A stretch of DNA of 64,000 nucleotides from Acidipropionibacterium sp. (GTDB lineage: Bacteria; Actinomycetota; Actinomycetes; Propionibacteriales; Propionibacteriaceae): NCBI GenBank assembly GCA_022647765.1, contig JALCLH010000004.1, positions 186,001-250,000 of the forward strand, given 5' to 3'. A program made the translations under genes and the position numbers. Shown here piece by piece: positions 22,013 to 39,569 of the stretch. Positions within the stretch are counted from its first letter, which is position 1. The number at the start of each line of letters is the position of its first letter. The notes under the pieces were generated by a model, which was not told where the DNA came from, made no database searches, and was given only the letters and a program-made list of their open reading frames with translations.

Positions 22013-22327
22013 CATGGCCACCATCATGCTGGACCCGGACATGGCCACAGACGGGCCGAGCCCTGGAATATCCGGTCCGCGGTCGCCATGTGGCCATTTC
22101 CAGGAGAACCTCAGACAGGCCTTCACTGAAATCGGCCATACACGGCCCGACCTGTGGATTATCCAGAGGGCGGCCAGTATGTGGCCGATTCCATCACCAT
22201 GGGGCCCGGGCCGAGAGACCCGAGCACCGGAATCTGGACCCTCACAACGACGAGGCGCCCCTTCCGCCACGAGACGCCTCATCTAGCGGGCGTCTCGTCG
22301 ACGAGGAGGCGCCTCGTGGTCTGGAGA
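22013..22327 (+). repeat. composite dispersed repeat, copy 1 (two 65-bp palindromic units, linker, 68-bp nested hairpin)
   Basis: Aligns to the reverse complement of 38872-39097 over its whole length except one ~91-98-bp extra unit. Confidence 0.9.
22250..22317. repeat. nested four-arm hairpin of repeat copy 1
   Basis: ACGAGGCGCC...ACGAGACGCC-tcatctagcg-GGCGTCTCGT...GGCGCCTCGT. Confidence 0.85.
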
Positions 22328-38871: not shown

Positions 38872-39097
38872 TCGCCAGGCCACGAGGCGCCCCTTCGTCG
38901 ACGAGACGCCCGCTAGATGAGGCGTCTCGTCGCGGAAGAGGCGCCTCGTCGTTGGGGTGGGTCGAGATTCCGGTGCTCGGGGCCGTCGACCCAGGTCCCG
39001 TGGTGATGGAATCGGCCACATGGCGGTCGCGGACCGGATATTCCAGGCCCTGCCCCACCACTGGCCATTTCCGGCATCCAGCACGATGGTGGCCATG
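38872..39097 (-). repeat. composite dispersed repeat, copy 2 (one 65-bp unit, linker, 68-bp nested hairpin)
   Basis: Reverse complement aligns to 22013-22327. Confidence 0.9.
38882..38949. repeat. nested four-arm hairpin of repeat copy 2
   Basis: ACGAGGCGCC..GACGAGACGCC-cgctagatga-GGCGTCTCGTC..GGCGCCTCGT. Confidence 0.85.
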
Positions 39098-39158
39098 TCT
39101 GCCGGGGTGTGGTGCTCACCGGACGCCGACCACCAATGGCCCCCCTGGAATCACTCAT

Positions 39159-39569
39159 CTAGTCATTAGCGGGTCCTGGACCCTCGAAGGGCGGCGGCGC
39201 AAACCATCCATACTCTTCGCCCGGTTGATGCCAGGACGGCACGTCGGGGGATGGACTAGCTTCCGGGGAGAGTCCGTCAGAATCACGGTGCTCGTCGATG
39301 ATGTCGCATTGCGGCGCCGCTATCCGCAGCAGCTGGATCAGCTGAGTCCCCTCCCGATCCGACCAGTCGAGTGCCTCCTGCGTATCCCAGTCGCCAAAGT
39401 CGGGATGATGCACCTCCCAGTGGCTCTCCCACGCCTTCAGTCGGTCAGCCAACTCATCATCGTCACAAAGCCCCAACTCATCGGGATACGCCTCCCCCAT
39501 CTCGCCCCACAACGGCCACGGATGACTCCAGTCCGCGAAGAACCGGAACCTCTGCCTGCGCTCTGCCAT
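39159..39569 (-). CDS. hypothetical protein
   Basis: 136 aa, MAERRQRFRFFADWSHPWPLWGEMGEAYPDELGLCDDDELADRLKAWESHWEVHHPDFGDWDTQEALDW; acidic/aromatic, no family recognised. Confidence 0.6.
   Translation of the reverse strand: MAERRQRFRFFADWSHPWPLWGEMGEAYPDELGLCDDDELADRLKAWESHWEVHHPDFGDWDTQEALDWSDREGTQLIQLLRIAAPQCDIIDEHRDSDGLSPEASPSPDVPSWHQPGEEYGWFAPPPFEGPGPAND

Follow-up and report, generated by a model that had tools for sequence, protein, structure and literature searches.

Between two minus-strand features of the window (the whole 64,000-nt stretch of DNA analysed here), the end of a YqeY-like gene and a PyrR leader, lies a composite palindromic element, termed K. The question raised by this locus is what such an element is and how its copies come to be in the genome. 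An earlier, sequence-only reading had placed it correctly between the yqeY end and the pyr leader and had described it as a modular palindromic element that was neither a CRISPR nor an IS end, a description with which the searches reported here agree. To follow the element beyond the window, searches were carried out against G000, the draft genome containing the window (~87% complete), and against four congener genomes (G001–G004).

Anatomy and copies of the composite element

The features of K are collected in Table 1. Two palindromic units were present as described in the earlier reading, with dyads of 69 bp in place of the 65 bp it had assigned to them, and the 68-nt hairpin that it had placed after them was recovered at exactly that length. 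In K copy 1, the dyads are separated by 22 bp, and their centre-to-centre pitch is exactly 91 bp. Four copies of K were found in G000, two in the window and one on each of contigs C10 and C1. Approximately 75 bp beyond the left end is common to K copy 2 and the C1 copy, and part of this sequence is also found in the C10 copy, which has an inverted, diverged version of the outer left sequence beyond its H end. A likeness of 30 bp between the left end of K and a carB-like sequence was judged to be coincidence.

Table 1. Features of the composite element K and its copies; positions without a contig name are those of the window.
Feature	Position	Strand	Basis
Composite element K copy 1 (P-P-linker-H)	22013..22327	+	genome search
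P unit 1, 69-bp palindrome	22035..22103	+	alignment and covariance model R1
Linker of 22 bp joining the two P units (91-bp pitch)	22104..22125	+	spacing shared by most P dimers in the genus
P unit 2, 69-bp palindrome, centre TGGATTATCCA	22126..22194	+	alignment and covariance model R1
Conserved linker CCCGAGCACCGGAATCT...GACCC, confined to composites	22195..22249	+	composite alignments
H hairpin, 68 bp: 29-bp arms, 10-nt loop TCATCTAGCG	22250..22317	+	model R2, 84.5 bits
Composite element K copy 2, minus one 91-bp period	38872..39098	-	genome search
H hairpin of K copy 2	38882..38949	-	model R2, 89.8 bits
Single hybrid P unit of K copy 2	39006..39074	-	model R1, 58.1 bits
Outer left sequence of K, start near GACTAGATGAGTGATTCCA	39099..39167	-	BLAST, 76% over 79 bp and 80% over 51 bp
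Further K composite	G000 C10:149363-149670		genome search, 87-89% identity over shared length
Further K composite, H truncated	G000 C1:402822-403098		genome search, 87-89% identity over shared length

At the site of K copy 1, the flanks, once joined, can be aligned through the junction in G002, G003, and G004, and the element is therefore absent from these three congeners. H is likewise missing at single orthologous sites in G003 and G004. Empty sites in relatives, a possibility raised in the earlier reading, were thus seen as absence of the element, but at K copy 1 and at the two H sites the intergenic alignments are too divergent for an exact empty site or an insertion junction to be located at base resolution.

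Two further observations concern neighbouring sequences. To the left of the C10 copy (L082), the outer left K sequence is interrupted by ~1.07 kb of coding DNA that resembles a transposase gene, has inverted ends (GGTCTGGTCGAGTTCGGGG), and looks IS1380-like. In G003, the site orthologous to H site L161 of G000 (L328, C15:10600-11800) carries another long palindrome, GTGCGCAGATCACTCCGCAGACG...CGTCTGCGGAGTGATTTGCGCAC, perhaps belonging to another repeat family.

Two dispersed palindromic families

The composite had been taken as one element in the earlier reading; it is a mosaic of two independent dispersed palindromic families, P and H. Approximately 40 P units were found in G000, mainly as dimers with a 22-bp linker, and the family is present in all four congeners searched. 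H has 34 copies in G000, 4 of them partial, and a few in three congeners, with none in G003 in the same congener search. The repeats are thus not limited to the two copies first seen, either in this genome or among its relatives. The P consensus is roughly CTGAAAnCGGCCA-N16-TGGATWATCCA-N16-TGGCCGATTTCAG, and 19 instances of its centre, TGGATWATCCA, were counted in the genome versus 0 for a reversed-pattern control; with copy numbers so far beyond chance, the observation of the composite itself is confirmed. When public genomes were scanned with the P pattern, true matches came only from Acidipropionibacterium thoenii and A. jensenii, from which the host genus is taken to be Acidipropionibacterium; other bacterial and viral matches look like chance.

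These repeat counts are approximate because, in G000, contigs C9 and C22 have an element and its flanks in common, as do contigs C11 and C19. Each pair represents the same locus, repeat and flanking genes included, with small differences, which suggests either a mixture of strains or sequence duplicated in the draft.

According to a rough gene call, copies of P and H are intergenic or lie at gene ends, in convergent, tandem, and divergent settings, and the copy sets of the repeat families differ strongly between species. For P units, the nearest neighbour came from the same genome in 55% of cases versus 28% after shuffling.

Partner genes in the genus

In G000, H copies lie within 2.3 kb of each other more often than expected (6 gaps versus 0.7), mostly flanking ordinary genes. 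Close pairs include those at C3:271030/273131, C5:137803/139745, and C12:102861/103866. It was the H pairs 1-2 kb apart that led to a partner gene. In three species (G000, G004, and G001), an AbiEi/DUF559-like gene was found between two H copies, its stop codon falling inside or beside the downstream H. The G000 gene is frameshifted in the assembly, and the neighbours of the H-type gene differ between G001 and G000/G004. P arrays were found just upstream of another DUF559 gene in all 5 of the 5 genus genomes, on one side only. Being located elsewhere in the genome, these partner nuclease genes were out of reach of the sequence-only reading.

Other AbiEi/DUF559 paralogues have palindromes of their own, often on both sides. 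Those named p2 and p4 are dispersed in G000, and p1, p3, p5, and p6 are dispersed in G001 and G002. In G018, which belongs to a different genus, p9 is dispersed, p7 has one other copy among the matches listed, and p8 has no other copy among the matches listed. The outer motif is identical between the gene-side P array and the dispersed P units in both G004 and G001; in G000, it is TGCCA in the gene-side array and GGCCA in most dispersed P units. Several P units of G004 (L187, L188, and L195) measure 70-71 bp and have a pitch of 92 bp, in the DUF559-side array as well as among the dispersed copies. As part of the explanation favored below, P probably has one cognate AbiEi–Vsr-like (DUF559/MTES_1575) gene, and H another.

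A different arrangement was also weighed, in which the full mobile unit is palindrome–gene–palindrome, solitary palindromes are solo-LTR-like footprints left after end-to-end recombination, and the protein may be a homing-type nuclease. The near-identical palindromes on both sides of a gene, the clustering of H, the differing neighbours of the H-type gene, and the resemblance of the nuclease half to the homing endonuclease I-Bth0305I are all in keeping with such a unit, but G000 has 34 H copies for one H-type gene, the other close H pairs inspected enclose ordinary genes, and the P arrays are one-sided; we therefore regard this arrangement as unlikely. A cassette or composite transposon made up of paired H copies was rejected because the intervening genes inspected, the DUF559 gene excepted, are ordinary.

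The AbiEi–Vsr-like protein

In an alignment of 28 sequences, the nuclease half was found to contain an invariant Asp and near-invariant Glu residues (the conserved acidic residues of the G004 protein include D230 and E241), with matches to PF18741 in 23 of the 28 members and to PF04480 in 18 of them. The predicted structure has a mean pLDDT of 88. A fold search matched the N-terminal half of this model to AbiEi (6y8q, E 3.7e-6), followed by I-Bth0305I (3r3p) and Vsr with weak E-values, and sequence-profile matches to 3hrl, 3r3p, and Vsr back the nuclease assignment. PADLOC AbiEi profiles matched the N-terminal half in four of six members. These comparisons show an AbiEi-like fold joined to a predicted Vsr/I-Bth0305I-like PD-(D/E)XK nuclease fold with conserved acidic residues. 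Among the neighbouring ORFs of ten loci, none was recognized by eye as an AbiEii (DUF1814) toxin.

AbiEi antitoxins autoregulate by binding inverted repeats in their own promoters (PMC7319586), so that the AbiEi-like half may plausibly recognize the flanking palindromes. The same precedent would also suit a regulatory reading, in which the palindromes are operators, the AbiEi-like protein is a repressor, the dispersed copies form a regulon or act as decoys, and the nuclease half serves another purpose. Although palindromes do lie upstream of their cognate genes, and P copies do occur in divergent intergenic regions, the whole 68-74 bp, loop included, is common to the copies, which therefore arose by descent and not as converged binding sites. 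Copies are also located on the downstream side of the gene and between genes that converge, and the strong differences in copy sets between species likewise count against operators, a role that we consider improbable.

Generality across the actinomycetes

The test set consisted of 65 AbiEi–Vsr-like genes from the genus and the class, including 40 further class loci. In a scripted flank test, similarities of ≥17 were counted, the 99th percentile of the controls being 16.3; the 167 control genes were drawn from the genus genomes only, whereas the test genes were also class-wide. This similarity was reached in 39 of 65 genes, and the scripted test gave no significant flank repeat in 26 of 65. Matching palindromes on both flanks were found for 26 of 65 genes versus 1 of 167 genus-only controls (Fisher p = 1.2e-15). 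Downstream palindromes often start at the DUF559 stop codon. With up to 20 candidates per genome scored, 8 of 11 class palindromes (q1, q2, q4-q8, and q11) had copies beyond the gene flanks, and the other 3 (q3, q9, and q10) had copies only beside the gene.

Gene and palindrome are paired in H, in P, and in many further families class-wide, and most of the tested palindromes have copies scattered through their own genomes. The association of palindrome families with AbiEi–Vsr-like genes is thus well supported.

The sole positive control gene encodes a sugar-isomerase-like TIM barrel and lies between two near-identical P-dimer segments (L152:11707-13167). At five loci (L257, L268, L271, L283, and L287), DUF559 genes were accompanied by short direct-repeat arrays (e.g. 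GTGATCATGCA units) and not by palindromes.

Borders, strand symmetry, and target sites

Copies of q1 show 93% identity in the arms, 79% in the loop, and 38% in the flanks; the corresponding values are 83%, 67%, and ~30% for p1 and 86%, 80%, and ~30% for H. All three families have sharp borders and unrelated flanks, and because the loop is conserved as well as the arms, the copies derive from one another. In p1, q1, and H, the three families tested, flanking duplications of the kind that target-site duplication would leave were not in excess. Many small bacterial repeats are MITEs, and the diverged inverted outer ends of one K copy could be read in the same way; P and H would then be MITE-like and derive from ordinary DDE insertion sequences, and their proximity to DUF559 genes would be incidental. 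Against such an origin stand the lack of target-site duplications and an association with DUF559/AbiEi genes that is far above controls and involves unrelated palindrome sequences class-wide, so that it appears very unlikely.

A role mainly as RNA, whether as terminators, mRNA stabilizers, or small RNA, would be in line with the compensatory changes observed (23 P pairs and 9 H pairs altered on both sides) and with the start of many downstream palindromes at the DUF559 stop codon. Paired changes can, however, also arise through DNA quasi-palindrome correction. G·T and A·C mismatches are about equally frequent (69 versus 74 in P and 27 versus 30 in H), so neither RNA strand is favored; pairing that is symmetric between strands argues for a DNA palindrome and against an RNA selected on one strand. 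Rfam returned no match at gathering score over the composites when positions 21-40 kb of the window were searched by E-value, and none above gathering score in 12 gene loci. The occurrence of copies in convergent, tandem, and divergent regions also speaks against RNA function, to which we assign the lowest probability of the readings weighed.

The structured ncRNA suggested in the sequence-only reading consequently finds no favor, whereas its suggestion of a non-autonomous mobile element fits best, given dispersed copies, sharp borders, and presence or absence between species. The interpretation offered there is partly supported overall.

Proposed spread of the repeats

With somewhat better than even confidence, we propose that P and H are REP-like elements that are recognized, and probably spread, by cognate AbiEi–Vsr-like nucleases. 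Alongside the gene–repeat association observed in the genomes, spread or maintenance of the copies by the nuclease is the most likely process. The AbiEi half would recognize the palindrome beside its own gene as well as the dispersed copies, and it would probably autoregulate its own gene too, in the manner of AbiEi antitoxins at promoter inverted repeats. The nuclease half may nick or cut at the palindrome, and copies could then spread by a repair-like or single-strand route that leaves no target-site duplication. P and H copies would have come together and later been duplicated as one unit, K.

Chances are about even that this extends to a second, independent class of REP-like mobile repeats across the Actinomycetes, in which AbiEi–Vsr-like nucleases, and not HUH transposases, recognize and copy their cognate palindromes. 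If so, RAYT-type partnerships of repeat and nuclease arose at least twice, from unrelated enzymes. A candidate role would be provided for many actinomycete DUF559/AbiEi-type proteins, which are listed in databases as of "unknown function" or as antitoxins, and palindromic repeats in genomes that lack RAYTs would have a candidate cause. Because a DNA substrate is predicted for each gene, binding and cutting are directly testable.

Comparison with known systems

The closest anatomical likeness is to REP/REPIN elements and their RAYT (TnpA-REP) genes. Both systems have dispersed intergenic palindromes, often as dimers with set spacing, and families that are gene- and lineage-specific, and in both a single gene is flanked by its own palindromes, the layout described for REP/RAYT (PMC3733652). 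The enzyme here combines AbiEi with a Vsr-like nuclease, unlike the Y1 HUH transposase that defines RAYTs, and the palindromes, at 50-80 bp, lack the fixed GTAG tag. No common GTAG/CGTC tag of the kind located at the base of a 20-40 bp stem-loop was found in aligned P, H, p1, and q1 (68-74 bp). A RAYT/Y1 transposase as partner was rejected for want of a PF01797 match in G000 (~87% complete); this Y1 (HUH) profile also had no match in G001, G003, or G004, and its one match was in G002. The P and H systems are REP/RAYT-like by anatomy but are not members of REP/RAYT. CGTC-tagged REPs, reported mostly from alpha-Proteobacteria, include palindromic families for which no dedicated transposase was found (PMC3733652), in a study that covered transposase genes. 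They differ in their tag from the repeats examined here.

The N-terminal AbiEi fold (6y8q) is shared with AbiE type IV toxin–antitoxin systems, which, in contrast, have neither the extra C-terminal nuclease domain nor repeats dispersed genome-wide; an AbiEii toxin gene was not apparent, by eye, beside the loci inspected. Vsr and the Vsr-like homing endonuclease I-Bth0305I share the catalytic domain, by sequence profile and fold, but differ in that the proteins described here have an AbiEi-like fusion and a tie to dispersed palindromes, with no intron or mismatch-repair context seen. No report linking DUF559, AbiEi, or Vsr to palindromic repeats was found in the open-access papers searched, a scope outside which lie preprints and most subscription journals; an earlier description of the repeat–nuclease link may therefore exist elsewhere.

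MITEs and BIMEs resemble the present repeats as short non-coding dispersed units. MITEs are set apart by the absence here of target-site duplication in three families, with no parent DDE transposase identified, whereas K, as a mosaic of several repeats, is BIME-like.
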